Positions 10,423 to 52,600 of a stretch of DNA of 64,000 nucleotides are shown here, piece by piece (position 1 is the first letter of the stretch; each line of letters begins with the position of its first letter). A program made the translations under genes and the position numbers. Under the pieces are notes generated by a model. It was not told the origin of the DNA. It saw nothing but the letters and a program-made list of their open reading frames with translations, and searched no databases. The DNA comes from Chaetoderma sp. LZ-2023a (Eukaryota > Mollusca > Caudofoveata > Chaetodermatida > Chaetodermatidae): positions 10,618,145 through 10,682,144 of the forward strand of contig CM067365.1 in NCBI GenBank assembly GCA_034401795.1. The letters are read 5' to 3'.

Positions 10423-10459
10423 TGTTCGTGGTCGAGATGGGAGCTGCTGACATGGAAGG

Positions 10460-10977: not shown

Positions 10978-10979
10978 GG

Positions 10980-11960: not shown

Positions 11961-11993
11961 GCTATATAGAAGGGGTTTAAACAGGATATAACC

Positions 11994-12941: not shown

Positions 12942-12956
12942 GCCTCCAGATATACT

Positions 12957-13582: not shown

Positions 13583-13619
13583 TGTGCTGCCTGTACGGTA
13601 GCTTTAAGAACACCAGTAT

Positions 13620-14817: not shown

Positions 14818-14887
14818 GTGGTGTCAGGCCTAGCTATCATGGCGCTCGGGATCAGCCTACTCCGCCGCTAGCAAATCAGCTATAAGA

Positions 14888-15350: not shown

Positions 15351-15373
15351 GTTTAAGATGTCTCAATAGAGAG

Positions 15374-15601
15374 ATGAATATTCCTGAGTACCAACACGGA
15401 CACCTGGCAGATGTAGACTGGGAAGATCTTATTAGCTCACTCGACAGGGAACTCAGGCGTTTAACTGCGTTGTATACTCAGTGCTTAAACAATGATGTCA
15501 ACGTTACAGATCGTGAAGAAACTGCCCGAGAGCCAGGCGAGTCTTCAGAAGATGGAGAACCTGCTGCGAACCAAGACCCAGAAGCCATTGATACAGGCTA
15601 A
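15374..15601 (+). CDS. Polinton small acidic protein, 75 residues
   Basis: A short uninterrupted frame, acidic in its second half (DREETAREPGESSEDGEPA). It overlaps the next frame from 15492. Function unknown; it could be chance coding potential, though composition and position fit an element gene. Confidence 0.35.
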   Translation: MNIPEYQHGHLADVDWEDLISSLDRELRRLTALYTQCLNNDVNVTDREETAREPGESSEDGEPAANQDPEAIDTG

Positions 15602-15893
15602 GCCCCTGGCAGGCCATATCGCCAGTAACGTGGCGGCCAATGTGGCCGTGGTGAAGATGACAGGTGGAAATGAGGTTCTTCCTGCCGCCACTGCGTCTGT
15701 CCTCGCTACAGTGGTAAGTGGGGTGGCCGAGCACTGTCTCGGAATAACTCAGCCCATCCCAAAGATCGCCATCAGTGGTGCCTCCTACACTGCCGCCGGC
15801 AAGATCATGGGTGAACGTGTTACACTAATGGAGGCCGCGGTTCTAGGGCTAGCAACGAGTGCAATGGCTGAGATCATCGTCGCCTACGTTTAA
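15492..15893 (+). CDS. Polinton hydrophobic protein, 133 residues, looks whole
   Basis: An uninterrupted frame with a short polar N-terminus, then long Ala/Val/Gly-rich hydrophobic stretches (HIASNVAANVAVVKM, AATASVLATVVSGVAE, AAVLGLATSAMAEIIVAYV). Probably a membrane protein of the element; no named family. Confidence 0.5.
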   Translation: MMSTLQIVKKLPESQASLQKMENLLRTKTQKPLIQAKPLAGHIASNVAANVAVVKMTGGNEVLPAATASVLATVVSGVAEHCLGITQPIPKIAISGASYTAAGKIMGERVTLMEAAVLGLATSAMAEIIVAYV

Positions 15894-15912
15894 CCACTCT
15901 GAATAGTGAGAA

Positions 15913-16137
15913 ATGGATCACGAGACCCCTGCAGCATATGAGGCATGGCATGCTGGAGGGTGGTGTGTAGCCCATAGCCGAGCACACGGACTGAGGATTG
16001 CCAATGCCCGGGAATGGTGGACCGCCCACAAGGCATGCCACTGCAGAGAGGGCCAGTACCCTGAGCACTGCTACCTATTCCCTTTGCCGACTGCGTGGTC
16101 CTCCTATGCCCAACTATTTCACTGGGGGTATGACTAA
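15913..16137 (+). CDS. Polinton small Trp/His/Cys-rich protein
   Basis: A 74-codon uninterrupted frame with many Trp, His and Cys residues (EAWHAGGWCVAHSRAHG, CHCREGQYPEHC). It could bind metal. No family recognised. Confidence 0.4.
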   Translation: MDHETPAAYEAWHAGGWCVAHSRAHGLRIANAREWWTAHKACHCREGQYPEHCYLFPLPTAWSSYAQLFHWGYD

Positions 16138-16149
16138 TAGGTTTAAGCC

Positions 16150-17020
16150 GTGTATATAGCACTATGACTCTGTCACTCACAGACCTAGAAAGCAGAGCTA
16201 GGCGATCTTGCTCACTTGGGCGAGGCACGCCTCGGTTCAGAGGACACTGTTGCCCCTATCTCCTTCCTAGACCGATGAGAAGGGAGACCCGCGGTACCAT
16301 CCTAGGCCGAGATCTCATCGGGAACACTGATACGGTAGGACAATCGGCCATTAACAAGGCCAAACTGTATACAAGGGGATGGGGATCAAGGACAGAGCGA
16401 CGATGCAAGGTATGCTCAGAGTCGATGAGGCTGGAGCCATCAAGGTTATGGCTGAGTCCTATGCACAAGACCTGGTTACGGATCTCCTGCAACCACGGAG
16501 CTCATTCCAACAGGATGGAGAGAATCTCAAGGTAGGCACCATCAGAATGAGCAAGATCACTGTTGATGGCGCAGAGGGTGCTACCGCCAGCCTCCAGCTA
16601 CCAGCGGTGAAGAAGTCAGGGTTCTTTGGTTTGCCATTGAAGACCTAGGCACCATCAGGCTGAGCAAGATCACTGTTGATGGCGCAGAGGGTGCTACTGC
16701 CAGCCTCCAGCTACCATAGGTGAAGAAGTCAGGTTCTTTGGTTTGCCGTTTAAGACCACAGGATAGGCATGGCTTCCCGTGCATGTATCATACAGATACT
16801 GGATATACTAGACACTGTGGGTGCTGACACAGGCCCTCTATGCTATCTTGACGCCTCCATCGCATGCTTCGTAGCCGCTGGAGGTGCAGGATTCCCCACT
16901 CTGCAGGCGAAAGAGCTGGCGCAGGAAGTACTGCTGTTTAGTCTCCCAGATATAGACGAGGCTACCACCGACCAAGTGCTAACCATCCTCCGCACACATG
17001 TCTGTACCATTCGACAGTAG
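16150..17020 (+). pseudogene. Polinton small-gene block upstream of the ATPase
   Basis: Several short plus-strand frames with coding-like composition, including 16769-17020, which looks whole (83 codons) and overlaps the start of the ATPase region. None matched a family. The section around 16533-16760 contains a direct repeat of about 113 bp. Confidence 0.4.
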
Positions 17021-17630
17021 GCCGGCTGATGCTGGCCAGGTGGTGCTGATCATTGCCCCATCAGGACACAGGAAAACCATCTTGCTGCAGGCTCTACTGG
17101 CCAAACATCAACACTCTCAATACATCCTTCTGGTGTCTGACTCCGCCGCTGAGGCGGCTGACAGTAATGATCAATGGTACAATGGCCCAATCACCAAGAC
17201 AGAACCTGCGAGCACTGATGGAGAAGCTGCTGTCAGCCCGACTGACAGAACCACTTGTTCCAGTTATCTATGACCCTGCAATGGACCAGAAGACAGTCAC
17301 CTACCTCAGCAACATCACCAGGCGCATCTGGCACACTTCATCCTCTTTCAGAAGTACACCCACGAGATCTCCCCGGTCATCCGCTACAATGCCCGGTTGC
17401 TATACTTCAGCTCCAAGTGTGGACGTGCCCTGCTCGAGACCATATACGACAGCCTAACCCTCAAGGAGATCAAAGGGGACTTTATCACAGGTGTACAGAG
17501 GGCAGCTGATCTGTACCGCTTCATCTTCAGCAACAAGGAGACAGGTGAGCTCTCTCTGGAAAAGGTGCAGACCTTCACCTACAAGCTGAATCCAGCCAGG
17601 AAACTAGCCTGCTCTACGCATCATCGCTGA
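16998..17630 (+). pseudogene. Polinton packaging-type ATPase, broken
   Basis: The start contains a P-loop-like APSGHRKTILL stretch, as in the FtsK/HerA-type genome-packaging ATPases of Polintons. The end (ARLLYFSSKCGRALLE type, then KEIKGDFITG) is the sort of C-terminal half seen with it. In the living element it would pump DNA into a capsid. A few breaks. Confidence 0.65.
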
Positions 17631-17653
17631 CAGACTGTCGACCACAACTTTTT

Positions 17654-17990
17654 TCATTCATCGGGAGGCTGAGGAACTTCGTCCGTTGCCGCTACTTCGT
17701 CAGATGCTTGAGGACCTTCATCAGAAGCTGGAGGAACTTCGTCAGAAGCTTGAGGAACTTCGTCAGTTTCGTCAGAAGCCTGTCGCTGAAACTCTATCCA
17801 CTGAGGGTCAGATGGTAGGACTCTCTTCTTCTGCAACTTCTCACGGAAGATCCACTTTGTCCATGTGCGACGAGCATCTGACTTGCGAGCGGATTTGATG
17901 AGGTAGTCCAGGTAGTTATCTGGGAATTTCAGAAATGCTGGCAGATTACTGGCCAATCTCATGCACCCTCTTTCGTTGAAGATGTGCTCA
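17654..17990 (-). pseudogene. Polinton minus-strand protein with acidic repeat tail
   Basis: Coding remains with a helical, basic N-terminal half (NYLDYLIKSARKSDARRTW) and a tail of 'QASDEVP'-like repeats. It is convergent with the ATPase region. No family recognised. Confidence 0.45.
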
Positions 17991-18049
17991 ACAGCCTCCT
18001 CTGGCAGCAGTTGGGGATCTGATCGCTCTGTTCACAACGAAGGCTGGCG

Positions 18050-18507
18050 AGATGGTCCGCAAGATCGCCAACAATGCTCTCCATGGTGTGGAGAAGATTT
18101 CTGAAGCCATACCAGCCATCGCCTCAGGAGTAGGTACGTTCTTTGGCGTCGCAGGCCCTTGGCTACCGTACGTTGCCATAGCACTCGCGGCGGGACGCCG
18201 AACATTTAAGCCATGCTGTATAAGGATGGCATCTCTGTACGACCTGGTCAAGATACTTAACTTCCGAGGGTTAATCGATAAACTACCGTTCAGTGAGGAT
18301 CCAGCGGAGACTAGACGCCGGTGTACGGAGGTGGTTGAGGAGGTCTTCAGTGATAGTCGAATGAATGCCGGCCGTCTATTCGTCTGTTTAGAGTTCGCCC
18401 AGGCCGTGGGTGACAGGACGGGAGTGGACGTCAGTGATAAAATCACCCAGGCCGTGTGTGACAGGACGGGAGTGGACGTCAGTGATGAAATCAACCGTCT
18501 TTCTTGA
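18050..18507 (+). pseudogene. Polinton leader region before the integrase
   Basis: An uninterrupted frame with a hydrophobic segment (PAIASGVGTFFGVAGPWLPY) and then a helical domain starting LYDLVKILNFRGLIDK. A 45-bp direct repeat encodes 'QAVGDRTGVDVSD' twice near its end. It overlaps the integrase region and may include that gene's N-terminal part. Confidence 0.45.
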
Positions 18508-19485
18508 GGAACTCTACTATCAGCCTGGTGGATATTACTGTGAACCCCGTCAACTACTCGAGGATGCACGTCGCAAGGGCCACAACTTCACATTGGAGAC
18601 AGTTAAACAGTGGCTCAGCTGCCAGGCGATGTGGCAGATATACAGACCGTGTCCACGGCACATTAGGCATGCCCATTTCGATGAAACTGTCCCGAACAGA
18701 GTTCACCAGGCAGATGTTCTATTCCTTCCACATGACTCTGTTGGTCGTAAGACCTACAAGTATGCCCTCACCATCGTCGATGTCGCCAGCAGGTACAAGG
18801 CTGCAGCACCGCTCACAGACAAGTCAAATGACCAGGTGGTCCAGGCATTCCAGGGTGTCTATGAGGCTTCGGAAAATCCCATCCAGTGGCCGGAATTGTT
18901 GCAGGTGGATGAGGGTAAGGAGTTCAGAGGTGAGACTGCAGCCCTCATGCGGAAACACAGTGTGGCAGTTAGGTGAGGCGAGGTAGGGCATCACCGTGCC
19001 CAGGCTATCATTGAGCGGTGGAATCAGACACTGGCAGATAGACTGTTTCCACACCAATACGCCCAGGAAATGGCCGCGCCGAGTGAATGTTCTAGAGTAT
19101 GGGTGAGAGGGCTGCCTGCTGTGGTGGAGAGATCCAATGCCGAGATTACTAGGCTAATCGGGAAGAAGCTGGTAGAGGCTATCAGACACTCTGCTGGTCA
19201 CAGCTCTAAAGGAGCGAACAAGGGAGAGAGTGCCTACCACCTGATGCTCTGGTTCGGTACCTGTATGAGCCTGGTGAGCTGGAAGGTGGTTGATGGCATG
19301 CAACAGATCCTAACTGGTCGATAGATGTTCACAGGCTTGACAGGTATGTGGAGGCAGAGGGGCAGGCTACACTATACTACCTGGCATGCCAGCACGGAGT
19401 GCCTAGGCAACCATTTGTCATAGAAGAGCTTCAGCTGGTCCCTGCAGACACACAGCTACCACCCCCTAGGGTGCTAACATGATAC
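18410..19485 (+). pseudogene. Polinton retroviral-type integrase, broken
   Basis: DDE-integrase core features are visible: HQADVLFLPHD followed by YALTIVDVASRYKAA holds the first catalytic Asp region, LLQVDEGKEFRG the second, and IIERWNQTLADR the Glu region. In Polintons this enzyme joins the element's ends to host DNA. Breaks are present. Confidence 0.85.
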
Positions 19486-19559
19486 CTGATGGGCTCGGTA
19501 TGGACACCATCTGGCAGCACATGGCGCTTATCATAGTAAGTGAAGAGTCCGAGTTTTTC

Positions 19560-22500
19560 CTGCTCATACGTCACCATACCCTGGTTGCGCATGCGTAGGC
19601 CTCGGTTTTTAGCTCTGTCCACCCCGCCATGTAGGGCGCTGTAGAACCCCTGCCAAGAGACCTCATTCTGCCGCTTTGACATTCCCTTAGCCGAGCACTT
19701 ACTTGCAGCTCCACGTAGTAGCATTTGGAGCAGAGTGCGATACCAACAGAGCTTTCGAACTCCAGCTTGAACAGTCCCGGAGTCCATCCAGACCATTTGT
19801 CCCAAGCTAGCCAGTCCCTCTTATGAGCCTGGTATCCTGCTCGCATCTCAGGGCGAATGAGATCGTCGAGGTTGGAGCCTGCTATAGCAATATACGCAGA
19901 GTCAGTGTCCATCTGCAGGTACTCAAAGCTGTCATGAGCTACGTAGCGATCGAGGAAGTCGTAGTAGAACTCCACCATTCGCAGCTTCGCGAGCTCATAA
20001 ATGGCTATCCCCACCTGGAAGGGCCTTCGAATAGTGATTCTCGGCTTGCGACTCTGGAGCTCGTATGACTCACCGATCTCCTTGAGATCTTCGAACCATG
20101 CACTACGCAGGGCCATGTCTACAACGCGTTCATCCTTCGTGAAGCTGGTGCTGCTATGGCGTTCTACGGCCTCGATGAGCTTCCCGTAGACACTGTTGAC
20201 GAGGAGTTTGAAGAGCTCTGCCAAGAGCTCTTTGCTCTTATCTACATCTCCCGAGCGGCGGGCCTCCGTAACATTCTCCACGAACCACTCGAATGGGCGC
20301 TTGGTTTCATAGTCTATGGTGCGGTATACAGCAGTGATCTCCAGGCCATAGGTTATATACCACTTGAGTGTCGGTGCGTACAGCAGCCACTTCTTGCCAG
20401 AGAGGGCGCTGACCAGCTTCTGGGTGGTGGGTCGCTTCCGCCCTCTATGCTCTAGATATGCCTGCATCTCAGAAGAGATGGCCTCTACCAGGATCTCACG
20501 GTTATAGAAGAGCGGGGGCATTTCCTCGAACTTTGCCCACAGAGCCTTAGGGATCTCTATATCCACCTCTGCAAATCCAAACCAGCGGTCTGCTAGGAGC
20601 TCCTCCTTAAAGCTGGCTACACCACTGGCACCGGACCAACGGCGCACTGTCTCCTTACCACAGGGCATCTCTTTGGCCATCGTTGACAGGTATAGAGCAT
20701 TTACATCATAGCCGAGTAGACGTTGGCAGACTATGGCGAATGCGTGTCACACCTGCCTCATGGTATCTGGTGAACACGATGCTGGGCCCTCCAACAACCT
20801 CGTCCTTCAGCATCTCATAGGCCTCCTTGCCCGGAGAGTATAGGCTAACATCCGGCATGTGCTGAGCGGTTCCACGTAGGAGGTACTGCAGTGAACCACC
20901 TGGGAGAGACAGCGTCTTTGAGGATGTCTAATTCTCGTTCTGTGTAGAACTCCCGCACCCACTATAGGGCTTCGATGAATGGACTGACGTCCAGGTTGTT
21001 GTAGTATCACAGCCAGTCGGCGAATGTCCACATTCCGTGCTCGCTGAATGTCTGGTTACATTGTTCCCACTCTGATCGCGTCAAGCGGTAGCCACCCTTG
21101 AGCTTAGATGTCCATGCTAAGTAGTCAGGAAGCCCTGGATAGTTGAGCTTCTCGTGTGTGTCAAACCATTCATACGGGAATCAGCTCTTCTGCCATGTAC
21201 ACCCTTAAGCTTTGACCCATACCCCGTATGAGACTCCTGGGCCGAGGTAGTTCAGCACATCGGGAAACCGTAGCTCAGGTGTTATGAGGAACATGGTCTG
21301 ATTAGCCTTCTTGGCGACTTTCACTGTACCTATACTGTCAGTCAGCTCATCGACAAAGTACTTCTTGATGAGGTTCAGGTCATACCATCCAGAGTTGAAC
21401 CCCAATATAGGCACTTTGTCATACCACTCGTTGATCAGTCGCTGCTGTCGCTTTGGGAGCTTGTCCAGGTCTGTCGATATGTACTGTGCCCTAACCCTTG
21501 TCCGGATTAGATATGCTCGCCGTTGGATTTCCAGCATGAATTCTCTGACCAGTTCTTTGGGGTCAGGCTTGCAGAGGTGAGTGGGCTCACTCGTGGCGCC
21601 CTCTAAGGAGCAGCCAACTGACACAGAGATAGGTATGTGAGTACTCTCGATCGTGAGTCTCCGTAGGATGAGTCTTGATACCATCTAGGAGTGCTTCGAA
21701 GTTGTAAACTATGAAGTGTGGGTATGGGACAGTCCGAACTCGTTTAGGGACGCTTGGACAGCGTTTTATACAGCACTCCCACTGTACCACAAGCGTGCAT
21801 CCAGACGCTCTCAGCTTCTCTCTCTGGACTGTCTTGCGGTATCTATGTTCAGCATCCTCACCTCGCTGGTGTTGTGGACACCCATGCCAGACACAGTCAT
21901 GGAACTGGTAAACGGTGTTGGTGGTCAGATCATAACCATTTATGGGAGCACCCTCGATCCAACGCTCGCCACCGTGCCCACACTCTACATGGTGTATGTG
22001 TATGCCTCTGTTTCTCGACTCATACTCGATCCAACGAGTAGCCGCTGAACTGGAGGGTTGGGGCGGATAGAAGGCTTTCTCATACGCAGACTGTGGCGCC
22101 TCAACCTTCTCGCCAGGACACACGATTGTTGTTTTGCCGCCTGTACAGTGATCAGCATGGCGTTGAAGATTGCATGCCTGTGTAAACCTCTGCTAGTGAC
22201 CGCAGACTAGTGTATGTGCCAGCTTGGAGATGTTCTTGATGTAGAAGGCATGGTGGTCCCACACTCTGATGGTTATGGTGTCACGGTAGTGAGCCGCTTG
22301 CCTGATCAAGTGCCAGGTACCCTCTTCGGTTGGTTCATACACGCGAATCCCAATCTTGGCAAAGAACTCTACCTTGTCCAGCTGATCCAGTGAGGTCTTG
22401 CGGACATCAGGTCTTGCCGTAGAACTGTGTGGCAAGCTCTCGTGCAGGAGCTATACCTCTATCAGCTCTCGCTCCTCGGTGGACTGCTAGACATCTCCAG

Positions 22501-23335
22501 AGACACATGTTGTCCCTGTAGGTGTCGAGGGCAGTCATACTCTTCTTCTGTCATAGCCAGTCTGGGAGGGGGCCTGTCCCAAGCAGAGGTTGGCGGTCGA
22601 TGACAGCCCTGACCTCAACGTTGATTGATCGAACGAAAGGCAACTTGCTGTTGGGTCGATCGATATTGTCTGTGTCGAGGCGGGCTTGCTCTCTTGCTGC
22701 CACCCAGTTCTGAGCTGCTCCTATCGTGTTCAGCCACGGGCTCCCTGGAGCATTCTTGTGGAAGAGCATCACCCTACCATCTTCGATATGACGGATGCGA
22801 TAGGTATGGGTCTAGCGGAGGTAGAAGGCATTCTGGACTGTCTGCTGGATCTTTTGCAGGTCTCCTAGACGTCTGAAGAATGTCCAGCGTACTGACCGGC
22901 GTCCTCTATCCTCTGTCTCCCTTTCGCCGAGACAGTGGTCGAGAATGTGTTCGGCTTCTCGCCTCATGCTCCGGGATAAGGGTTCAGACCTCGGTCTCCT
23001 CATCATTCGCTTAGCGATCCTGCGTAGGGGAGGTAAGCGCTCCAGTGGATGGTCTGCCATCCGCCTCGCTACAGTCTTGGCTCGCAAGCTAGCAGTCACC
23101 TCCTTGTCCACCTGACGAAGCTCACGGAGCCGCTGCGCTTTCTTGTGGGGATTCAAAGGATCATCTTTGTTAAGTGCTGGAAACCTTCCCTTCTTCATTG
23201 CTCGGGAGAGCGGCTTCTGTGACTCCTCAGCACGGGCCTGTCCGATCATCTGGAGCAGGCGGCTTTCTTGGCCTTAGAGGCTACACTAAGGCCGAATTGC
23301 TTTGCAACCTTGCGAAGCTGTGCAACAGTAATCAT
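19560..23335 (-). pseudogene. Polinton protein-primed family B DNA polymerase, broken
   Basis: Convergent with the integrase. The polymerase motifs KLLVNSVYGKLIE (motif B) and QMDTDSAYIAI (motif C) are clear, and the 3'-5' exonuclease region is seen in ILGFNSGWYDLNLIKKYF. The N-terminal portion starts near 23335 and is basic and helical, where the terminal-protein-like part of such polymerases sits. In a living element it copies the whole genome from a protein primer. It has many breaks, on the order of six to ten. Confidence 0.9.
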
Positions 23336-31710: not shown

Positions 31711-31847
31711 TTATCTGCTGATAATTGGCAGGTATTCATCATCGGCTTGTTGGCGTTTTCTCAAGAGCTTTCCTAACCATATGACAGTCAAGATGGCCAG
31801 GATGCCAGTGATTATTCCACTTATCACGCTCATAGCAACCACAACCG
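31711..31847 (-). CDS. ACP2-like: Acid phosphatase terminal exon: membrane anchor and tail
   Basis: This 137-base terminal exon has a pyrimidine-rich acceptor (..ttctctgtatttcag) and ends with a TAA stop. It encodes about 23 hydrophobic residues starting VVVAMSVISGII, a basic stop-transfer (GKLLRKRQQ), and a tail ending ADDEYLPIISR. YLPI fits the YxxPhi sorting signal, which parallels the tyrosine-based signal in the tail of vertebrate lysosomal acid phosphatase. I infer a type I membrane protein sent to lysosomes. No polyadenylation site could be fixed; 31163-31710 is the likely 3' UTR or downstream flank. Confidence 0.88.
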
Positions 31848-34601: not shown

Positions 34602-37600
34602 CACACAAACACACACACACACACACACACACAGCTCTTGATATTCAAATGTATTTAGCTTCTTCTTCTTCTTTTCGTTCGCTGATCATACCGCCAGTCC
34701 TGTAAGTGACTATCGACATGATCATAAGGGTGAGGTAACCCTGACAGAAACCTTGAGTGCTGAAGACGGAGGTTCCAGGCCGCATGGCGCACTCTAATAA
34801 ACCATGGATCCACGCACTTAACGCTTATGATCATGTATTTAGCTGACATTCAGCTTTCGAGACACAGGCACCCACTCACGCATGCGTGCACCCATTCTTA
34901 CCTATAGGAAGACTACTGGTAAACATGCTGTGTGTGTCAGTGAGCTGACATTCAGTTTCCCAATCAACAGGAATCATATCTTTTGATAAAGATAGAAATC
35001 GATTAAATGGGCACTTAGCGTCACAACCTGAAACCAGATCACGATTACAGTTAGAATAACAACCTGAACCCAGATCACGATTAGGATTACAGCCTCAAAC
35101 CAGATCAAGATTAGAATCACAACCTGAAACCAGATCATGATTACAGTTAGAATAACAACCTGAAACCAGATCAAGATTCGAACAAGCATTCTGTAAGTAT
35201 TGCTTTGCAATACATGTCCCCCACCTGGTGATATAAATCTTTAGAGATTGACAGTCAAAAACTCCATTAAAAATTGACAGAAGCAGCTGAAACTCAAACT
35301 TGATCTGTAACTTCTCATAACAAAGCAATATACCAAGTTTCAGTTATATATGGTGAAGGAGAACGAAAGCCTTGAAAGATGATATGTTTGTATTGCATAA
35401 GTCGAAAGGGGACATAAGTCCATCAAAAATTGACGGAAATGCCTGAAACTCAAACTTGATCTGTAATTTCTCATAACAAAGTAATGTACCAATTCTCAGT
35501 GTGCGCGCGCGCGAGCATGCGGTTGATGACACGTTTTCGCAAATCCCCACATTCACCGCTTTAAACTTTTGACTCACAACCCACCACAGGGGTGGAGCCA
35601 AATGTAAACGACCTTTTGCACTCGGCAATCATATGGGTAACTTACATACCAAACTTGGTTGAATTTTGTGCAATTGTGTCAGACGAGTTACATTACAATA
35701 AATTTTGCGACCTTTTGACGCCATCCCCCACCCCTGGGGGTGGGCCAAATGTAAATGGGCTCATTCACTCCACATTGATATGGGTAACTCACATATAAAT
35801 TTGGTTGAATTTCGTAAAATGGTTTCGGAGGAGATGCCTTAAATCAATTTACGCTATGTTAAAATTTGACCCTTTGACCCATCTCCCATCCCCCTAGGGG
35901 GGGGGGGGGCAGGGGAGCAGGAATCTAAAAGTTCTCGTGCGCTCCACAATTGGTAACTCAGATATAAAATTTGGTTTCCGTCTAACGATTTCAGAGGAGT
36001 TGCATTACAATCAATTTCAAGACCTTCTGACCTGATCCCTCATCCCCCCTGGGGGCGGGGCCAAATGTAAATATGCTCATCCACTCCACATTGATATGGG
36101 TAACTGGCATACTAAATTTGGTTGAATTCCATCCAACAGTGTCAGAGTAGTTGCATTATAATCAATGGCAACCTGAAACCAGATCAAGATTAGTTACAAT
36201 CACAACCTGAAACCAGATCAAGATTACAGCTAGAATGGCAACCTGAAACCCGATCAAGATTAGTTAGAATCACAACCTGAAACCCGATCAAGATTAGCAT
36301 CACAACATGAAACCAGATCAAGATTAGTATCACAACCTCACACCAGATCAAGATTAGAATCACAAACTCACACCAGATCAAGATTAGAATCACAACCTCA
36401 CATCAGATCAAGATTAGAATCACAACCTCACACCAGATCAAGATTAGAATCACAACCTGAAACCAGATCAAGATTAGAATCACAACCTCACACCAGATTA
36501 AGATTAGAATCACAGCCTGAAACCAGATCAAGATTAGAATGACAACCTGAAATCAGATTACGATTAGAATGACAACCTGAAATCAGATCAAGATTAGAAT
36601 CACAACCTGAAGCCAGATCAAGATTAGAATCACAACCTGAAGCCAGATCAAGATTAGAATGACAGCCTCAAACCAGATCAAGATTAGAACCACCAGATCA
36701 AGATTAGAATGACAACATGAAATCAGATCAAGATTAGAATCACAACCTGAAATCAGAACAAGATTAGAATCACAACCTGAAATCAGACCAAATTTAGAAT
36801 CACAACCTGAAATCAGATCAAGATTAGAGTGACAGCCTCAAACCAGATCAAGATTAGAATCACAACCTGAAACCAGATCAAGATTAGAATCACAACCTGA
36901 AACCAGATCAAGATTAGAATCTCCACACCCTCAAACAAGAGGCCCAACAGCCTGTATCGCTCACCTGGACCATAGGCATTTCAACTAGAATGTTCATCAA
37001 CAATAAGTAGAACTCTAATGAGTTGAGCAGACTTGTAACAAGAAAACAGAGGCTATGTTTCTTTAAGAATCAACTTTTCTTGGCCCATAGTCATCAATAT
37101 CATCTCCCAAATTTCGGCCCGATCACCAGCAGATCTGGAGTTGTTTTCTCGAAAACTAGGTCAACCTAGATGGCCGCCGAATGAGTCGGCCAATAAAGTT
37201 CACAAGTTAACAAATTTGGTTCAGCGCTTGGCCTAGATGATATTTCATGAGTTTTGAATCAATCCCTCAAATGGTTTCGGAGATTAAAAAACTAAAGAAA
37301 TTTCAAAAAATCGGCCAAAATCCAAGATGGCCACCGGCCCAATTTGCCGATCGGCTTCGTTTGAACAAACTTGAATCTCTATGCCCTAAGGATGCATCCT
37401 GCCAAATATAATTGAAATTGTCCCAGTAGTTATCGAGAAGACATTTTAAATTTCCCATTGCTTTAGTATGGGACCTTTTGCCAGGAAAATGATCCAAGAT
37501 GGCCGCCAAACTGTTTATCCGACCGTTTCGAAAATTGCAATTTATTTGAGATCAGAATACTCAAAAACACATATTAAACCAATTTTGGCCTCAAAATCCA

Positions 37601-40600
37601 TTAAAAAAAATCCAATATGGCTGCAAAATATGCTATATTTTGATTGGCCCAGGCGGCCATGTTTTTTTGGTGGTTAAATTTCCCTTGAACAAACTTCAAT
37701 GGCCCCTAGTCCCTAATCATATCTGGCAAATTTCGACCCGATCCCTTCAGCGGTTCTGGAGGTCGTTTTCCCCAAAACTAGGTCAACCAAGATGGCCGCC
37801 GAACCATTTGACCAATCAAGTTCCCATGAACAAACTTGGTTCAGCTCTTGCCCTAGATCATATTTCATGAGGTTTGCATCAATCCCCCAAGCGGTTTCGG
37901 AGAAGATTTTTAAAGACGTTTCCTAAAATCGGTCGAAATCCAAGATGGCCGTCGGCTAAATAGGCTGATTGGGTTCATTTGAACAAACCTGAATCTCTAT
38001 GCCCCAAGGATGCTTCCTGCCACATATAATTGAAATTGTCCTAGAAGTTCTCGAGAAGACATTTTAAGTTTAGCATTGCTTTTGATCCAAGATGGCCACC
38101 AAACCATTCATCCAACCCTTTTTGAAAATTACAAATTTGAGATCAGAATACCAAAAAAACCATAAAACCAATTTCGGCCTCAAAATCCATCAAATAAAAA
38201 AATCTAATAGGGCCACCAAATACACTATATTTTGATTGGCCCACGGCAGCCATGTTTTTTTACGGTTCAACTTCCCCTGAACAAACTTTAATGGCACTTA
38301 GTCCCTAACCATATCTGCTAAACTTTGACGTGATTCCTTCAAACCAAGATGGCCGCCGAACCAATTGACCAATCAAGTTCCCTTGAACAAACTTGGTTCA
38401 GCTCTTGACCTAGATCATATTTTATGAGGTTTGCATCAATCCCCCAAGCGGTTTCGGAGGAGATTTTTAAAGACGTTTCTTAAAATCGGCCGAAATCCAA
38501 GATGATCGTCGGCTAAATACGCCGATCGGCTATGTTTGAATAAACTTGGATCTCTATGGCCTAAGGATGCTTCCTGTCAAATATAATTGAAATCGGACCA
38601 GTGATTCTTGTGAAGTCGTTTAAAGGGAAAGTTGACGGATGGACGACGGACGGTCAGCATGGCATAAGCTCACTTGGCCTTTCAGGCCAGGTGAGCTAAC
38701 AATGTACAGGTGGACCACATACTGAGGTCATCTTTATGCAGAGGTTTTGATCATGTGGTCTTTATGCATAGCTGCTCCACATACTGATGTGTACATCATA
38801 CCGAGGTAGTCTACATGCAGAGGGGTGGGGGTGGGGGGTACATATACAAATGTTGTTAACATACATATGAGGTTTACATTCTGAGGTGGTCCTCATATTG
38901 GTGGTTTCACACACAGGTTTTACTCACCAGGAATAGTAAGTAAGTAAGGTTCTGTTGTTGTATCATTTCTATATTTGATCTGTACATAAAAAGCCTCATT
39001 TTCGCCAGTCGTCATCGTCGTTGTTGCGTGTAGCTCCACGATGACTGTGGCAGTGAATCCTGGCACAACACCATTCCACATAGATAATGAATCGAGGAAT
39101 GATATCAGCGTCGTATCATGCTAAAAGACATGAAGAAACAACAATCATTCCTTAACCATCTGACTGCTAAGTTTTTGCAGACGACATATTCCCGGGGCTA
39201 TATCTCAGCTGTTAAATATTTTGAAAACAATTTGACTGAAAGTTGTTGGTGGCTAGGCCATCAACAACTTTCAGTCCAATTATTTTCAAAATATTCAGCA
39301 TGTCGAGAATGGTTGCTCATTCCTTCAGTTATACCTCGGGATCTGCTTAATATTTTGAAAACAATTTGACTGAAAGGTCTTGGTTGTCCATGGGCTTTAA
39401 TTCTGGATATGCTGAATATTTTGAAAATAATTTGACTGACAGTTTTTGGTGGCTAAATCACTAACAACTTTCAATCAAATTGTTTTCAAAATATTCAGCA
39501 GGTTCAGAGTTATTGCCCGTTTAAAATTATTATCCGATGGCTTGCAGCAGTCGCATAGTTAAGGAAGCCGTCTAATTGTGTGTCAGCTCTGCTCTTGGAT
39601 TGGGTGTCCAGGTTTTCGATGCCTTGCATTTCCTTTTTAGAAAGGTATCAAAACTGTTAATGAAATGATTGAAATCTGATGTGTGAATGAGGCGTGAGAC
39701 GGTCATGCAAGATGTAAAAAAGAATGGTAAGCGATCCCGCATAAGTGAGGCCATATCTGGTCCTTCAAACATGAAGCGAGATCGCAAATCTTTTTCAAGC
39801 ATCTTGTTTGTCGTTACACCCAGAGGAGCAAAATTAGATTGCTAAGTTTCAGTGAGATTTAATGGGTCTTTACAATGGAGGAATCCAGTTTTAGCAATGC
39901 CCCTCCCATCTCTAGCTAATCTCCACCCACGCTTTGCCTGTGTTGGGATCAATCGATCCCCACACTCTCTGAATCTGAATTTGCAGCAAGCTATACAGGT
40001 AAGCGGTTGAATATTTTGAAACTAATTTGACTGGATGTTGTTGCTGCCTATGACAGCAATCGCGTCCAATCAGATTACATGTAGTTTCGAAATATTCAAC
40101 AGAATGTTTATTAACCGTTTAATGGTCAAGCCGTCCCAAACCTCCCTCTGCAATGGTCTTGAGGAATATCCATTTGCAGACCAAGAAGAGAATTTCTAAC
40201 AAGAGGTCCGCAAACGGCGCATAATACCCCGCCATGATGACAAACTAATAAATGACAGCTATCAGAAAATAGTTATTTCTTCCGCAGACCAGTAATCCTT
40301 ATTAAGTGTCAAAGCGATCCGCTAAACGGTCAAGGAGGTATCGTCCGGAAAACAATTTTCAAGATGGCTGCCATATTAGATTTCGGATTATCGTAAATTT
40401 CGATAGGTTTCTCACCAGACATATTCCAACGACCCTAGGAAGTGATCCGATAAATGGTAATGGAAATATCATTCAGAAACCAAATATCAAGATGGCAGCC
40501 CGTGGCAGGCGGCCATCTTGGATTTTGGATCAGTGTCTATTTTGATAAGTTTATTCCTCAGACCTAGTCCAACAACTCTATGAAGTTTCAAAGCGATCCA

Positions 40601-43600
40601 ATATACGGTAACAGAGTTATCATCCGGAAACCAATTTTCAAGATGACCACCAGTGGCTGGCAGCCATCTTGGATTTCGGATCATTCTCCATCTAGATAGG
40701 TTTCTTCACCAGAGGTAGTCGAACCACCCGATGAAGTTTCAAAGCGATGCGACAAACGGTAACGGAGTTATCATTCGGAAACCAATTTTCAAAATGGCCG
40801 CCATCTTGGATTTCGGATCATCGTCGATTTCGGTAGGTTTCTTCCCAAGACCTAGTCCAACCACCCTATGAAGTTTCAATGCGATCCGCCAAACGGTAAC
40901 AGAATTATCATCCGGAAACCAATTTTCAAGATGGCCGCCGGTGGCTGGTGGCCATCTTGGATTTCGGATCATCGTCGATTTTGATAGGTTTCTTACCAAG
41001 ACCAAGTCCAACCACCCTATGAACTTTCAAAGCGATCCGATAAACGATAACAGAGTTATCATCTGGAAACCAATTTTCAAGATGGCCACCAGTGGCTGGC
41101 GGCCATCTTGGATTTTGGATCATTGTCGATTTCGATAGGCTTCTTCCGCAGACCTAGTCCAACCACCCTATGAAGTTTCAATGCGATCCGCCAAACGGTA
41201 ACAGAGTTATCATCCGGAAACCAATTTTCAAGATGGCCACCTGTGGCTGGTGGCCATCTTGGATTTCGGATCATCGTCGATTTTGATAGGTTTCTTACCA
41301 AGACCAAGTCCAACCACCCTATGAACTTTCAAAGCGATCCGATAAACGATAACAGAGTTATCATCTGGAAACCAATTTTCAAGATGGCCACCAGTGGCTG
41401 GCGGCCATCTTGGATTTTGGATCATTGTCGATTTCGATAGGCTTCTTCCGCAGACCTAGTCCAACCACCCTATGAAGTTTCAATGCGATCCGCCAAACGG
41501 TAACAGAGTTATCATCCGGAAACCAATTTTCAAGATGGCCACCTGTGGCTGGTGGCCATCTTGGATTTCGGATCATCGTCGATTTTGATAGGTTTCTTAC
41601 CAAGACCAAGTCCAACCACCCTATGAACTTTCAAAGCGATCCGATAAACGATAACAGAGTTATCATCTGGAAACCAATTTTCAAGATGGCCACCAGTGGC
41701 TGGCGGCCATCTTGGATTTTGGATCATTGTCGATTTCGATAGGCTTCTTCCGCAGACCTAGTCCAACCACCCTATGAAGTTTCAATGCGATCCGCCAAAC
41801 GGTAACAGAGTTATCATCCGGAAACCAATTTTCAAGATGGCCACCGGTGGCTGGTGGCCATCTTGGATTTCGGATCATCGCCGATTTCGATAGGTTTCTT
41901 ACCAAGACCAAGTCCAACCACCCTATGAAGTTTCATTGCGATCTGCCAAACGGTAACAGAGTTATCATCCGGAAACCAATTTTCAAGATGGCCACCAGTG
42001 GCTGGTGGCCATCTTGAAATTCGGATCATCGCCAATTTCGATACGTTTCTTACCAAGACCAAGTCCAACCACCCTATGAAGTTTCAATGCGATCCGACAA
42101 ACGGTAATGGAGTTATCATCCGGAAACCACTCTGCCACCCGCACGCCCGACGGCCTGCCTGCGAAACATTTTGGCGGGGTATAAAAATTTACCACTGGAA
42201 TGACTGGCTCGATAACTGAGCCAGTCATTCAAGTGATAAATTTCCAAAAAGTGTCTTCTCTTTGTCAGTGCATGGACATTCAATAAACAAATATTTTGAT
42301 TTTTTTGACCAAATTTGACCATGAAAGGATTAACAAGTAAAGACCTACAATTCGTTCAGCTGCATGAAGACGGACAGCGGATTATTAAAACAATGGGAAA
42401 AGCATGCACACGCATGCATATACTGATGACTGCAAGATTGTAAAACAGATGGGTTGGAACCTATTATACATGACATGAGGCATTACAGATACACCTAAGA
42501 ATACCCATTATGGCGCTTAATAAATTTTAAAGTATTGAGAACTATGAAATTTCCAGTGTGTTGAAGCAGCAAGTAGTAAGAAGAAATGTGGTTGCAATGC
42601 ATGCATGAAGCTCAACTTTACAATAAGCTATGAAGCTTGACTTTAAACATAAAATAAATATAGAAGGCGTATCAATACCCTTATCAACAAGAAGCCCAAG
42701 GGCCTGTGACACTCACCTGGACCATTAGCATTTGAATCATTTGTATTTAAACGGACATGATGGACAATTCTGGAAAATCCAAGATGACTTACAAAGAAAT
42801 TGACCAAACGAAATTCTCATTTGATTTCCTAAAGTTTAGTTGAAATCTAGTCTTTGATTAAGTAGTAGTAGTGATTTAAACTCTGCTGGGAAATGTTTAT
42901 GTAAAATCCCTACCGAATGGCAAATTGACCAATCAAAATTCTCATTAGAACTCTTGAATTTGATCATGATAGGAACGTTCCAACCAAGTGCCATTGAAAT
43001 CTAGCCATTGATTAAGGAAGAGTAGCATTTTACAGGATTTCTGGAAAATCCAGGATAGCCACCCAAAAAATTGACCAATCAAGATTCTGTAAACATGTTC
43101 TGAAGTCTAGTCCCATAGGATCCTTCCAGTCCAATCAAGCTGAAATCTGCCAAGCCTTTAATGAGAAGTAGCGTTTTGACAATTTCCGGCAAATTTGTCA
43201 TCAAATCTAAGCTTTTCACGAATAAAATTGACACATTAAATTTCTGTATAAACGTTCTAAAGCCTACCCACATAGGGTCCTTACAGGCAAATTAAGATGA
43301 AATCCATCCAGCAGTTTAACGGTTATGGAGTCGCGTTTTGACCATTTCTGGTCAATGTTACATAAAATTCTGAAGTCTACCATGATAGGGTACCTATTGG
43401 CAAATTTGGTTGAATTATGTCAAGAAAATAAAGAGGAGCAGCATTTTGACCATTTCTGGTAAATCTTTCATAAATCTAAGATTTTCTCGCAAATAATGGC
43501 TAATCAAAATTCTGAATACCTATTCTGGAGGGTACCAGCATAGAATTCTTCCCGCCAAACTTGGGTGAAATCGGATAAAGCATTAAGGAGAAGCAATTCG

Positions 43601-46600
43601 ATGAACAGACGATGGACAGAGAGCCACCATGGCATAAGCTCACTTGAGCCTTCAGGGTGGGTCATTATAAGGAAGCATATGTCTAATTTTGGGTCCAGTA
43701 TGATTAACCAAAGATTTTATATAAAGTTAAGTTGAGCTAAACTCTTAATGTTGAAAAAAAAAATTTTTTTACCAACGACCTTGACCTTTTGACCCACAAA
43801 AATCATTGTGAGATGCTGTGCCATTATAAGGAAGCATGTGCCCAAGTTTGGGTCCAGTATGATTAACCAAACCTGAGATATAAACAGAAAAGTTGAGCTA
43901 AACGCAAATTGGATGACGACGCCACCGCCACCACCACCGGACGACGTGCAGGGCATCGCTTTATTTTGCAGTCGAGCTAAAATGCTTTCAGAATTACTTT
44001 GGAAAAAATACGCTGACACGCTGTCAACATTTAACACTAATTGTGAGTATATAAAGAATAATTCAATATTTTGCTGTCAATGATGTTACAAGATTTTAAT
44101 CTTCCTAGCATTTCATTAATAGATAGGTTCATGCCTCACAAAGTAGTAAAATAGTAAAATCCCATCACCTCAATTTTACACAAATGTTGAATATGTTGAA
44201 AGGGACTTGACTGAAGAATAGTACAAAAGCCAGGACAACACACATATGGATAAGCTTACCCCTGAATACACAAAGATAGTCAACAAGCCTGGACAACAAA
44301 CATATGGATAAGCTTACCCCTAAATACACAAAGATAGTCAACAAGCCAGGACAACAAACATATGGATAGGCTTACCCCTAAATACACAAAGATAGTCAAC
44401 AAGCCAGGACAACAAACATATGGATAGGCTTACCCCTAAATACACAAAGATAGTCAACAAGCCAGGACAACAAACATATGGATAAGCTTACCCCTGAATA
44501 CACAAAGATAGTCAACAAGCCAGGACAACAAACATATGGATAGGCTTACCCCTAAATACACAAAGATAGTCAACAAGCCATGACAACAAACATATGGATA
44601 AGCTTACCCCTGAATACACAAATATCGTCAACAAGCCAGGACAACAAACATATGGATAGGCTTACCCCTGAATACACAAAGATAGTCAACACGCCAGGAC
44701 AACAAACGTATGGACATGCTTACCCCTGAATACACAAAGATAGTCAACAAGCCAGGATAACAAACATATGGATATGCTTACCCCTGAATACACAAAGATA
44801 GTCAACAAGCCAGGACAACAAACATATGGATAGGCTTACCCCTGAATCCACAAAGATAGTCAACAAGCCAAGACAACAAACATATGGATAGGCTTACCCC
44901 TGAATACACAAAGATAGTCAACAAGCCAAGACAACAAACATATGGATAGGCTTACCCCTGCATACACAAAGATAGTCAACAAGCCAGGACAACAAACATA
45001 TGGATCTGCTTACCCCTGAATACACAAAGATAGTCAACAAGCCAGGACAACAAACATATAGATATGCTTACCCCTGAATACACAAAGATAGTCAACAAGC
45101 CAGGACAACAAACATATGGATAGGCTTACCCCTGAATACACAAAGATAGTCAACAAGCTAGGACAACAAACATACGGATATGCTTACCCCTGAATACACA
45201 AAGATAGTCAACAAGCCAGGACAACAAACATATGGATCTGCTTACCCCTGAATACACAAAGATAGTCAACAAGCCAGGACAACAAACATATGGATAGGCT
45301 TACCCCTGAATACACAAAGATAGTCAACAAGCCAGGATAACAAACATATGGATAGGCTTACCCCTGAATACACAAAGATAGTCAACAAGCTAGGACAACA
45401 AACATACGGATATGCTTACCCCTGAATACACAAAGATAGTCAACAAGCCAGGACAACAAACATATGGATATGCTTACCCTGAATACACAAAGATAGTCAA
45501 CAAGCCAGGACAACAAACATATGGATATGCTTACCCCTGAATACACAAAGATAGTCAACAAGCCAGGACAACAAACATATGGATATGCTTATCCCTAAAT
45601 ACACAAAGATAGTCAACAAGCCAGGACAACAAACATATAGATATGCTTACCCCTGAATACACAAAGATAGTCAACACGCCAGGACAACAAATATATGGAT
45701 ATGCTTACCCTTGAATACACAAAGATAGTCAACAAGCCAGGACAACAAACATATGGATAGGCTTACCCCTGAATCCACAAAGATAGTCAACAAGCCAGGA
45801 CAACAAACATATGGATATGCTTACCCCTGAACACACAAAGATAGTCAACAAGCCAGGACAACAAACATATGGATAGGCTTACCCCTGAATCCACAAAGAT
45901 AGTCAACACGCCAGGACAACAAACATATGGATATGCTTACCCCTGAATACACAAAGATAGTCAACAAGCCAGGACAACAAACATATGGATAGGCTTACCC
46001 CTGAATACACAAAGATAGTCAACAAGCCAGGACAACAAACATATGGATAGGCTTACCCCTGAATCCACAAAGATAGTCAACACGCCAGGACAACAAACAT
46101 ATGGATAGGCTTATCACTGAATACACAAAGATAGTCAACAAGCCAGGACAACAAACATATGGATATGCTTACCCATGAATACACAAAGATAGTCAACAAG
46201 CCAGGACAACAAACATATGGATAGGCTTATCACTGAATACACAAAGATAGTCAACAAGCCAGGACAACAAACATATGGATATGCTTACCCATGAATACAC
46301 AAAGATAGTCAACAAGCCAGGACAACAAACATATAGATATGCTTACCCCTGAATAGACAAAGATAGTCAACAAGCCAGGACAACAATCATATGGATAAGC
46401 TTACCCCTGAATACACAACGATAGTCAACAAGCCAGGACAACAAACATATGGATAGGCTTACCCCTGAATACACAAAGATAGTCAACAAGCCAGGATAAC
46501 AAACATATGGATATGCTTACCCCTGAATACGCAAAGATAGTCAACAAGCCAGGACAACAAACATATGGATCTGCTTACCCCTGAATACACAAAGATAGTC

Positions 46601-49600
46601 AACAAGCCAGGACAACAAACATATGGATATGCTTACCCCTGAATACACAAAGATAGTCAACAAGCCAGGATAACAAACATATGGATATGCTTACCCCTGA
46701 ATACACAAAGATAGTCAACAAGCCAGGACAACAAACATATGGATATGCTTACCCCTGAATACACAAAGATAGTCAACAAGCCAGGACAACAAACATATGG
46801 ATATGCTTACCCCTGAATACACAAAGATAGTCAACAAGCCAGGACAACAAACATATGGATATGCTTACCCCTGAATACACAAAGATAGTCAACAAGCCAG
46901 GACAACAAACATATGGATATGCTTACCCCTGAATACACAAAGATAGTCAACAAGCCAGGATAACAAACATATGGATATGCTTACCCCTGAATACACAAAG
47001 ATAGTCAACAAGCCAGGACAACAAACATATGGATATGCTTACCCCTGAATACACAAAGATAGTCAACAAGCCAGGACAACAAACATATGGATAGGCTTAT
47101 CACTGAATACACAAAGATAGTCAACAAGCCAGGACAACAAACATATGGATAGGCTTAACCCTGAATACACAAAGATAGTCAACAAGCCAGGACAACAAAC
47201 ATATGGATAGGCTTACCCCTGAATACGCAAAGATAGTCAACAAGCCAGGACAACAATCATATGGATATGCTTACCCCTGAATACACAAAGATAGTCAACA
47301 AGCCAGGACAACAAACATATAGATATGCTTACCCCTGAATACACAAAGATAGTCAACAAGCCAGGACAACAAACATATGGATAGGCTTACCCCTGAATAC
47401 ACAAAGATAGTCAACAAGCCAGGATAACAAACATATGGATATGCTTACCCCTGAATACACAAAGATAGTCAACAAGCCAGGACAACAAACATATGGATAG
47501 GCTTACCCCTGAATACGCAAAGATAGTCAACAAGCCAGGACAACAATCATATGGATATGCTTACCCCTGAATACACAAAGATAGTCAACAAGCCAGGACA
47601 ACAAACATATAGATATGCTTACCCCTGAATACACAAAGATAGTCAACAAGCCAGGACAACAAACATATGGATAGGCTTACCCCTGAATACACAAAGATAG
47701 TCAACAAGCCAGGACAACAAACATATGGATAGGCTTACCCCTGAATACGCAAAGATCGTCAACAAGCCAGGACAACAATCATATGGATATGCTTACCCCT
47801 GAATACACAAAGATAGTCAACAAGCCAGGACAACAAACATATAGATATGCTTACCCCTGAATACACAAAGATAGTCAACAAGCCAGGACAACAAACATAT
47901 GGATAGGCTTACCCCTGAATACACAAAGATAGTCAACAAGCCAGGATAACAAACATATGGATATGCTTACCCCTGAATACACAAAGATAGTCAACAAGCC
48001 AGGACAACAAACATATGGATAGGCTTAACCCTGAATACACAAAGATAGTCAACAAGCCAGGACAACAAACATATGGATAGGCTTACACCTGAATACACAA
48101 AGATCGTCAACAAGCCAGGACAACAAACATATGGATATGCTTACCCCTGAATACACAAAGATAGTCAACAAGCCAGGACAACAAACATATGGATAGGCTT
48201 ACCCCTGAATACGCAAAGATAGTCAACAAGCCAGGACAACAATCATATGGATATGCTTACCCCTGAATACACAAAGATAGTCAACAAGCCAGGACAACAA
48301 ACATATAGATATGCTTACCCCTGAATACACAAAGATAGTCAACAAGCCAGGACAACAAACATATGGATAGGCTTACCCCTGAATACGCAAAGATAGTCAA
48401 CAAGCCAGGACAACAATCATATGGATATGCTTACCCCTGAATACACAAAGATAGTCAACAAGCCAGGACAACAAACATAGATATGCTTACCCCTGAATAC
48501 ACAAAGATAGTCAACAAGCCAGGACAACAAACATATGGACATGCTTACCCCTGAATACACAAAGATAGTCAACAAGCCAGGACAACAAACATATAGATAT
48601 GCTTACCCCTGAATAGACAAAGATAGTCAACAAGCCAGGACAACAATCATATGGATAAGCTTACCCCTGAATACACAACGATAGTCAACAAGCCAGGACA
48701 ACAAACATAGATATGCTTACCCCTGAATACACAAAGATAGTCAACAAGCCAGGACAACAAACATATGGATAGGCTTACCCCTGAATACACAAAGATAGTC
48801 AACAAGCCAGGACAACAAACATATGGATATGCTTACCCCTGAATACACAAAGATAGTCAACAAGCCAGGACAACAAACATATGGATATGCTTACCCCTGA
48901 ATACACAAAGAGCTTCATTCGTGAATCTAGTGACCCATTCACTTTTGCTTTCATCTGTTCTGTGATTTCTTCAAGTAGTGGACCTGCAATGGCATAAACT
49001 ACCGTCACCTTACTGTTACTGGTCAGTAGTCATTTCAATGTTACTGGTCACTTCAATGTTACTGGTCAGTGGTCATCTCAATGTTAATGGTTAGTGATTA
49101 TCTCAATGTTAATGGTTAGTGGTCATCTCAATGTTACTGGTCAGTGGTCATCTCAATGCTACTGGTCAGTGGTCACCTCAATGTTACTGGTCAGTGGTCA
49201 TCTCAATGGCACTGGTCACCTCAATGTTACTGGTCAGTGGTCATCTCAATGTTAGTGGTCACCTCAATGTTACTGGTCAGTGGTCATCTTAATGTTACTG
49301 GTCATCTCAGTGCTACTGGTGTGGTCACCTCAATGTTATTGGTCAGTGGTCATCTCAATGGCACTGGTCACCTCAATGTTACTGGTCAGTGGTCATCTCA
49401 ATGTTAGTGGTCACCTCAATGTTACTGGTCAGTGGTCATCTCAATGTTACCGGTCAATGGTCATATCAATGTTACTGGTCAGTGGTCATCTCAATGTTAC
49501 TGGTCAGTGGTCATCTCAATGTTACTGGTCAGTGATCACCTCAATGTTACTGGTCAGTGGTCATCTCAATGTTAATCATCACCTCAATATTACTGGTCAA

Positions 49601-52600
49601 TGGTCATCTCAATGTCACTGGTCAGTGGTCACCTCAATGTTACTGGTCAGTGGTCAACACACTTTTATTGCTCACCTCAATCGTACTGGTCAGTGGTCAT
49701 CTCAATAGGACTGGTCACCTCAATGTTACTGGTCAGCGGTCATCCCAATGTTAGTGGTCACCTCAATGTTACTGGTCAGTGGTCATCTTAATGTTACTGG
49801 TCATCTCAGTGCTACTGGTCAGTGGTCACCTCAATGTTACTGGTCAGTGGTCATCTCAATGGTACTGGTCACCTCAATGTTACTGGTCAGTGGTCATTTC
49901 AATGTTACTGGTTCAGTGTTCATCTCAATGTTACTGGTCAGTGGTCATCTTAATGTTACTGATCAGTGGTCATCTCAATGTTACTGGTCAGTTGTCACCT
50001 CAATGTTACTGGTCAGTGGCCACCTCAATGTTACTGGTCAGTGGTCATCTCAATGTTAATCATCACCTCAATGTTACTGGTAAATGGTCATCTCAATATC
50101 ACTGGTCACCTCAATGTTACTGGACAGTGGTCATCTCAATGTTAATCATCACCTCAATGTTACGAGTCAGTGGTCATATCAATGTTACTGGTCACCCCGA
50201 TGTTACTGCTCAGTGGTCATCCCAATTTTACTGGACACCTCAATGTTACTGGTCAGTGGTCAACACAATGTTACTGGTCACCTCAATCATACTGGTCAGT
50301 GGACATCTCAATGTTACTGGCCCCTCAATGCTACTGGTCAGTGGTCATCTCAATGTGACTGGTCACCTCAATGTTACTGGTCAGTGGTCATCTCAATGTT
50401 ACTGGTCAGTGGTCACCTCAATGTTACTGGTCATCTAAATGTTACTGGTCATCTCAATGTTACTGGTCAGTGATCATCTCAATGCTACTGGTCACCTCAA
50501 TATTACTGGTCAGTGGTCGTCTCAATGTTACTGGTCACCTCAATGTTACTGGTCAGTGGTCATCTCAATGTTACTGGTCAGTGGTCACCTCAATGTTACT
50601 GGTCATCTAAATGTTACTGGTCATCTCAATGTTACTGGTCAGTGATCATCTCAATGTTACTGGTCAGTGATCATCTCAATGTTACTGGTCACCTCAATAT
50701 TACTGGTCAGTAGTCGTCTCAATGTTACTGGTCACATCAATGTTACTGGTCAGTGGTCATCTCAATGTTACTGGTCAGTGGTCATCTTAATGTTACTGGT
50801 CATCTCAGTGCTACTGGTCAGTGGTCACCTCAATGTTACTGGTCAGTGGTCATCTCAATGGTACTGGTCACCTCAATGTTACTGGTCAGTGGTCATCTCA
50901 ATGTTAGTGGTCACCTCAATGTTACTGGTCAGTGGTCATTTCAATGTTACTGGTTCAGTGTTCATCTCAATGTTACTGGTCAGTGGTCATCTTAATGTTA
51001 CTGATCAGTGGTCATCTCAATGTTACTGGTCAGTTGTCACCTCAATGTTACTGGTCAGTGGCCACCTCAATGTTACTGGTCAGTGGTCATCTCAATGTTA
51101 ATCATCACCTCAATGTTACTGGTCAATGGTCATCTCAATATCACTGGTCAGTGGTCACCTCAATGTTACTGGACAGTGGTCATCTCAATGTTAATCATCA
51201 CCTCAATGTTACGAGTCAGTGGTCATCTCAATGTTACTGGTCACCCCGATGTTACTGCTCAGTGGTCATCCCAATTTTACTGGTCACCTCAATGTTACCG
51301 GTCAGTACAATGTTACTGGTCACCTCAATCATACTGGTCAGTGGACATCTCAATGTTACTGGTCCCTCAATGCTACTGGTCAGTGGTCATCTCAATGTGA
51401 CTGTCACCTCAATGTTACTGGTCAGTGGTCATCTCAATGTTACTGGTCAGTGGTCACCTCAATGTTACTGGTCATCTCAATGTTACTGGTCAGTGATCAT
51501 CTCAATGCTACTTGTCACCTCAATATTACTGGTCAGTGGTCGTCTCAATGTTACTGGTCACCTCAATGTTACTGGTCAGTGGTCATCTCAATGTTACTGG
51601 TCAGTGGTCACCTCAATGTTACTGGTCATCTAAATGTTACTGGTCATCTCAATGTTACTGGTCAGTGATCATCTCAATGTTACTGGTCAGTGATCATCTC
51701 AATGTTACTGGTCACCTCAATATTACTGGTCAGTGGTCGTCTCAATGTTACTGGTCACCTCAATGTTACTGGTCAGTGGTCATCTCAATGTTACTGGTCA
51801 GTGATCATCTCAATGTTACTGATCTCCTCAATGTTACTGGTCAGTGGTCATCTCATGTTACTGGTCCCTCAATGTTATTGGTCAGTGGTCATCTCAAGGT
51901 TACTGGTCAGTGATCACCACAACTTTTCAAAATTGTACGAACACTTAGTAGTATCATTGTTTTAGGAAACGTTTTTAAAATTCTTCTCCAAAACCGCTTG
52001 GGGAATCGATTCAAAACTCATGAAACCTCATCTAGGGAAAGACGTAGGCCAAGTTTGTTTAAGAAGACTTTATTGACCGACTGGTTCGGCGGAAATCTTT
52101 CCTGAAAACAACCTCTTCTCCAGAACCGATGAAGGGATTAGGCCGAAATTTGGGAGATATGATTAGGGACTAAGGGCCATTAAAGTTTATGTCAAACTAC
52201 GCCAAGTCATCAAAGTCTGTCAGAGTCGCTGACTAAAGTTAATTATAATCTGCTATTTGCCACTGGAGTGTGCTATTTCCAAGCATGTCAAGCTGCATTG
52301 TTCAGATATCAATGTGCTTTGAGTATTTTGATGAAACTGCATGGGAAGGCTCATTAATTAATGATATTGATATCATACAATGCCCCGTCATTTGCAGTTT
52401 GAGATGGTCTACCTAGATTGTGTCTATTTTGGGGTCAGTCTATCCCTCTACATCTTCATCTGTCTTGCCACCCACCACAATGATTGCCTGTGCGGGTGAG
52501 TCATGGGATTTTGTCCACATTTTAATGTAATCTGTCGACTTCTTGTATTGCACTCTCTGATGGGATGCTAAATGAGTATTCTAACAAGTGTGAATGTGCA

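Follow-up and report, generated by a model that had tools for sequence, protein, structure and literature searches.

The window (the whole stretch of DNA that was analysed, 64 kb) carries a gene resembling the animal histidine acid phosphatases, and all features of this gene are located on the minus strand (Table 1). Exons A, B and C join in frame, and the predicted exon D, which was chosen out of five candidate acceptors, continues this frame. When the peptide encoded by exons A to C (136 amino acids) was compared with solved structures, five distinct sequences were matched, among them the prostatic acid phosphatase 1nd5 (E-value of 2.8e-22). HDTT and PGC..CP are common to this peptide and to the C-terminal part of the prostatic acid phosphatases. 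PGC..CP spans the joint between exons B and C and was matched in 1nd5 and 1rpa, which we take to be the human and the rat prostatic acid phosphatases. The first codons of exon C encode the Cys-Asp of PGCDAKCP, and Pro-Gly-Cys as well as the later Cys-Pro are present in both structures. This match bears out exon C and its acceptor, which had been proposed in a sequence-only reading of this DNA. Exon C begins with GTTGTGACGC, is preceded by ...GATCTGGTTTCAG and has CTATAG/gtaagaatgg at its 3' end. The transmembrane stretch, the short tail and the stop of exon D resemble the end of lysosomal acid phosphatase. On the other hand, a Pfam search with a 181-amino acid piece yielded no family at an E-value of 0.001, and this counts against the acid phosphatase identity. 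Searches against proteins with the joined exons (136 and 181 amino acids) were without a match, probably since proteins of about equal length alone were compared. The N-terminal RHGxRxP is the active-site motif of histidine acid phosphatases. A regular-expression search for RHGxR in all six frames of the window gave no match, and exons upstream of exon A were looked for in the window and not found; they may fall outside it.

Several other elements are present in the window, and the repeats together with the gene structure suggest an animal as host. The region 10000-23000 holds an element that was judged by its open reading frames and that we presumptively call Polinton-like; its DNA polymerase B domain (PF03175) is encoded at 19574-20746. 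A search with this polymerase open reading frame gave 632 matches; one among those listed came from a coral, Oculina patagonica, and this leaves the host unplaced. Retroelement open reading frames of the reverse transcriptase type were found at 57168-59250, where an RVT_1 match (57873-58718) stayed below the curated cut-off. A 39-bp array of 28 near-identical units (7562-8654) has at least one open frame on each strand, and no link to a gene was seen. The intron that separates exons A and B holds a 151-bp tandem array (40370-42129), which is not close to any junction.

Table 1. Positions of exons and tandem arrays of the acid phosphatase-like gene in the 64-kb window
Feature	Position	Strand	Remarks
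Third array, 18/25-bp units	49014..51916	minus	ends about 30 nt before the acceptor of exon A
Exon A	48895..48983	minus	GPLLEEI...KLFVYSG; donor GGG/GTAAGC
Donor array	44218..48911	minus	58-bp unit that copies the donor of exon A and the 17 exon bases before it
Exon B	38928..39120	minus	HDTTLIS...TIP + G; donor CTG/GTGAGT
Acceptor array, distal block (24 copies)	36169..36921	minus	copies at 36896-36172, mostly 30-bp spacing
Splitting DNA, about 1 kb	35183..36168	minus	not related to the array, internally repeated
Acceptor array, proximal block (4 copies)	35028..35182	minus	runs into the true acceptor; copies at 35159-35063, spacings 36, 30, 30, 36
Exon C	34902..35027	minus	126 nt, CDAKCPFNRF...SSLPI; acceptor TTTCAG/GTTGTGACGC, donor TAG/GTAAGA
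Exon D, predicted last coding exon	31711..31847	minus	transmembrane stretch, short tail, stop

In the intron preceding exon C, we found 28 extra copies of the intron-exon junction, of which 24 form a distal and four a proximal block, with about 1 kb between them. A 30-bp array repeating the 3' splice site of this exon about 30 times had been claimed before, and the count bears this out. Two stretches were left out of the 28, a degenerate match at 36929 (five mismatches) and a partial unit without an acceptor within the 50-bp spacing above 36666. The 30-bp consensus unit (CTAATCTTGATCTGGTTTCAG/GTTGTGATT) crosses the junction and comprises about 21 nt of the intron end, including the branch-like CTAATC and TTTCAG, followed by 7 nt or more of the exon start. 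The earlier figure of seven exon bases thus stands as a minimum, but the copied exon part may be longer. CTAA at exon positions +10 to +13 matches in 26-27 of the 28 copies, a weak signal (p 0.06-0.08), and a longer exon-derived founder (13-16 nt) was not accepted at these p-values. The tandem array adjoins exon C and its units repeat the splice site of this exon, which places it among the splice-site minisatellites. The repeated site is an acceptor, and in this the array differs from the two human cases considered below, where a donor is repeated. At its distal edge the array borders on a dispersed repeat (36930-36981) with the terminal motif CCAGGTGAGCGATACAGGC...CTTGTT; three copies of this motif were found in the window, and the two others (about 42719 and 5179) are less exact.

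The dinucleotide AG is kept in 26 of the 28 copies and lost in two, CAG is present in 18 and TTTCAGG in 15. CTAATC before the acceptor, as described in the sequence-only reading, was found at -21 to -16 in 24 copies, but the true acceptor has GTAATC in its place, and the best candidate for its branch site is CTAAC at -27 to -23. The 15-mer GGTTTCAGGTTGTGA occurs exactly in six of the 28 copies. When up to two mismatches were allowed, it gave 23 matches on the minus strand, all within the array region, and none on the plus strand. CTAA[CT] was found 12-32 nt upstream of 24 of the 27 array AGs (true site included), but upstream of none of the 147 other AGs between 38880 and 34951, a comparison in which the array units are not independent. 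None of these 24 sites has an extra AG between CTAA[CT] and the acceptor.

The claim that the units nearest to the exon are the most diverged was recovered as a trend only: deviations from the consensus averaged 3.0 in the five proximal rows (true site included) vs. 2.04 in the 24 distal rows (one-sided p = 0.069). Similarly, the distal block begins 1,145 nt away from the exon, as had been stated for the cleanest block, but the units with zero deviations are located 1.4-1.9 kb away. Variants common to the two blocks (35093 with 36666; 35123 with 36206) suggest that proximal and distal units were likely one array before the split of about 1 kb.

It had also been suggested that a donor array at another exon of this gene mirrors the acceptor array. 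Our data agree with this, since the 58-bp unit copies the donor of exon A; counting the true donor there are 80 units, and 74 of them contain GTAAG. We compared six stretches of some 50 nt taken at junctions with three arrays and then seven such stretches with six arrays, and strong matches were obtained only for the exon A donor with its own array (score 84) and for the exon C acceptor with its own array (score 61). The maxima of 300 random 50-mers were 27 for the donor array and 37 for the acceptor array, and 200 shuffles reached at most 34 against the exon A donor score and 30 against the exon C acceptor score. Next in rank was the exon D acceptor with a score of 33 for the acceptor array, which is above the 99th percentile (31) but below the maximum (37), and we took this as chance. 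The third array contains 171 TGAC motifs in 2,917 nt and ends near the likely branch region of exon A. It was not counted as a copy of the exon A acceptor (p 0.10 for the 50-mer, p 0.013 for a post hoc narrow 24-mer), and its relation to this acceptor is only suggestive. For at least two of the four arrays in the gene span to have a founder on one of six junctions, a post hoc calculation with random placement gave P 0.003. Since two junction-spanning arrays are improbable at random, splice junctions may be special sites for array founding, a point that counts against the explanation favoured below.

As to the consequences for splicing, reading from an array acceptor into exon C would run into a stop 3-84 codons past exon B for 24 of the 26 copies that carry AG, and the acceptors at +36 and +66 alone stay open through this exon. 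When the AGs between 38900 and 34951 were scored with a consensus matrix, the true acceptor came 20th of 178; 13 array copies outscored it and two tied, so that unaided competition would not favour the true acceptor. The AG and branch columns of the acceptor array carry 7 deviations vs. 15 expected (p 0.10), and GTAAG in the donor array carries 6 vs. 14 expected (p 0.17), the latter with a few 56-bp units out of register that add deviations; neither result is significant. These conservation tests lean to constraint, short of significance, and this counts against a neutral reading of the arrays. One of the columns that vary most is position -3, which deviates in 8 of the 29 rows (true site counted). 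In splice-column conservation, position -3 and stops, we observed no significant sign of selection for the use of array acceptors.

RNA structure was rejected as discriminator, since the AG of the true acceptor is no more open than those of the copies (rank 21 of 29 by local folding). The upstream CTAAC of the true site has an unpaired probability of 0.30, which is higher than that of the -21 to -17 stretch in 25 of the 28 copies, although these stretches are not equivalent and no weight was given to the difference. Shuffled sequences fold only a little less well than the 311-nt proximal region (z -1.68). The lack of significant selection and of a difference in accessibility suggests that the choice of the true acceptor, if made, most likely rests on its proximity to the exon and its donor. 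Exon definition, in which the exon C acceptor is paired with the donor 126 nt away, would favour the last acceptor, and only the four proximal copies would be near enough to compete with it. Among these, the use of +36 or +66 would keep the frame and add 12 or 22 residues, and the use of the remaining copies would lead to stop codons and probably to mRNA decay. Taken together, we predict that the array acceptors are mostly ignored by splicing.

How the array came about can be judged from the protein. The copied exon bases encode the conserved Pro-Gly-Cys of the family, and it is therefore likely that the repeat was copied from the exon; most likely, the exon C sequence came first. A duplication across the intron-exon junction would give the founder unit, slippage or unequal exchange could then expand the unit number, and the partial self-complementarity of the consensus unit (p 0.022 vs. 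1000 shuffles) may have aided this expansion. The opposite course, in which the array arrived ready-made, as a satellite or within a mobile element, and the exon took its border from it, is in our view most unlikely. It would account for the dispersed-repeat similarity that stops at the distal array edge (CTTGTT, about 36930), but the exon-side bases encode the PGC..CP stretch and the donor array represents the same self-copying at another exon. Occurrence of the array away from exon C had been named as the observation that would speak for such an arrival, and the 30-bp unit (up to eight mismatches) had no match elsewhere in the 64-kb window. A local birth of the array is likely, as judged from this window and from the protein argument.

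More weight has to be given to the possibility that the array acts as a length-dependent damper of splicing, in which decoys bind the splicing machinery and divert transcripts to stop-bearing products or exon skipping, so that the output would fall with the unit number. We consider this scenario possible but rather doubtful. The signals of the decoys are retained to a large part (CAG in 18 and CTAATC in 24 of the 28 copies), the 24 AG sites with CTAA[CT] are free of an interposed AG, and a stop would follow in all but two of the 26 copies with AG. The donor VNTR of human ABCA7, for which lower expression is described at greater length, is a loose parallel, but its authors state that the stop-bearing splice forms do not account for the lower expression (PMC5954066). 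Moreover, CAG is lost in 10 of the 28 copies and the signal columns are not significantly conserved. It appears very unlikely to us that the nearest copies work as genuine alternative acceptors and yield in-frame isoforms in which 12 or 22 residues are added ahead of the conserved Cys. From +36 and +66 the frame stays open across exon C and the four nearest spacings (36, 30, 30, 36) are divisible by three, but +66 is a GAG site, +36 scores below the true site on the consensus matrix, and the insertion would fall at the conserved PGC..CP stretch.

We therefore favour, with some confidence, tandem duplication of the intron-exon junction as origin of the 28 copies, which likely persist as a mostly neutral passenger with the exon-touching copy probably being the working one. 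When an acceptor is duplicated, the copy that adjoins the exon would remain intact, so that gain and loss of units would be tolerated; the array is likely neutral because the exon-flanking site survives. A more far-reaching version of this duplication scenario is speculative and in our opinion rather unlikely to hold as a whole. It states that splice junctions of this gene seed minisatellites, that the working acceptor, including its branch site, is itself the array-born last unit handed on from copy to copy, and that exon definition alone selects among the 19 CAG acceptors upstream of one exon and the 74 donors downstream of another.

Minisatellites carrying splice sites have precedents. The minisatellite of human IFI6 (6-16; Turri et al. 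1995) reportedly provides multiple donor sites to a transcript. Like the exon C array it supplies many splice sites of one kind, but these are donor sites, whereas the exon C array consists of putative acceptors. In intron 18 of human ABCA7 there is a 25-bp VNTR of about 12 to 427 units, the first two bases of which are the canonical donor of exon 18; retention of one unit was observed, skipping of exon 19 tracks the length of the VNTR, and expression drops with length (PMC5954066). This VNTR shares with the exon C array that a tandem repeat adjoins an exon and that its units bear the splice site of this exon. However, it copies a donor (PMC5954066), as does the sister array at exon A, and the exon C array copies an acceptor. 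Among the papers listed in the literature search, judged mostly on titles and the openings of abstracts, there was no acceptor-site minisatellite. The exon C array extends the donor-site minisatellites (IFI6, ABCA7) to acceptors. A prawn lectin paper was considered as a parallel and set aside, since it concerns coding repeats (PMC7536079).

Tandem duplication is also involved in one form of intron gain, in which a stretch holding AGGT is duplicated and an exon comes to be interrupted by a new intron. The exon C array resembles this process in the kind of duplication, but here 28 copies lie inside an intron. Intron gain by tandem genomic duplication is the subject of an earlier paper (PMC4974935).

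In the gene described here, a natural one, 26 acceptor copies with AG precede one exon, and another exon is followed by 74 GTAAG donors (true donor included). Experiments on splice-site choice commonly use plasmids with one or two duplicated sites. Knowing which of the copies take part in splicing would put proximity, scanning and exon definition to a direct test, and the two arrays raise the question of whether minisatellites arise preferentially at splice junctions.
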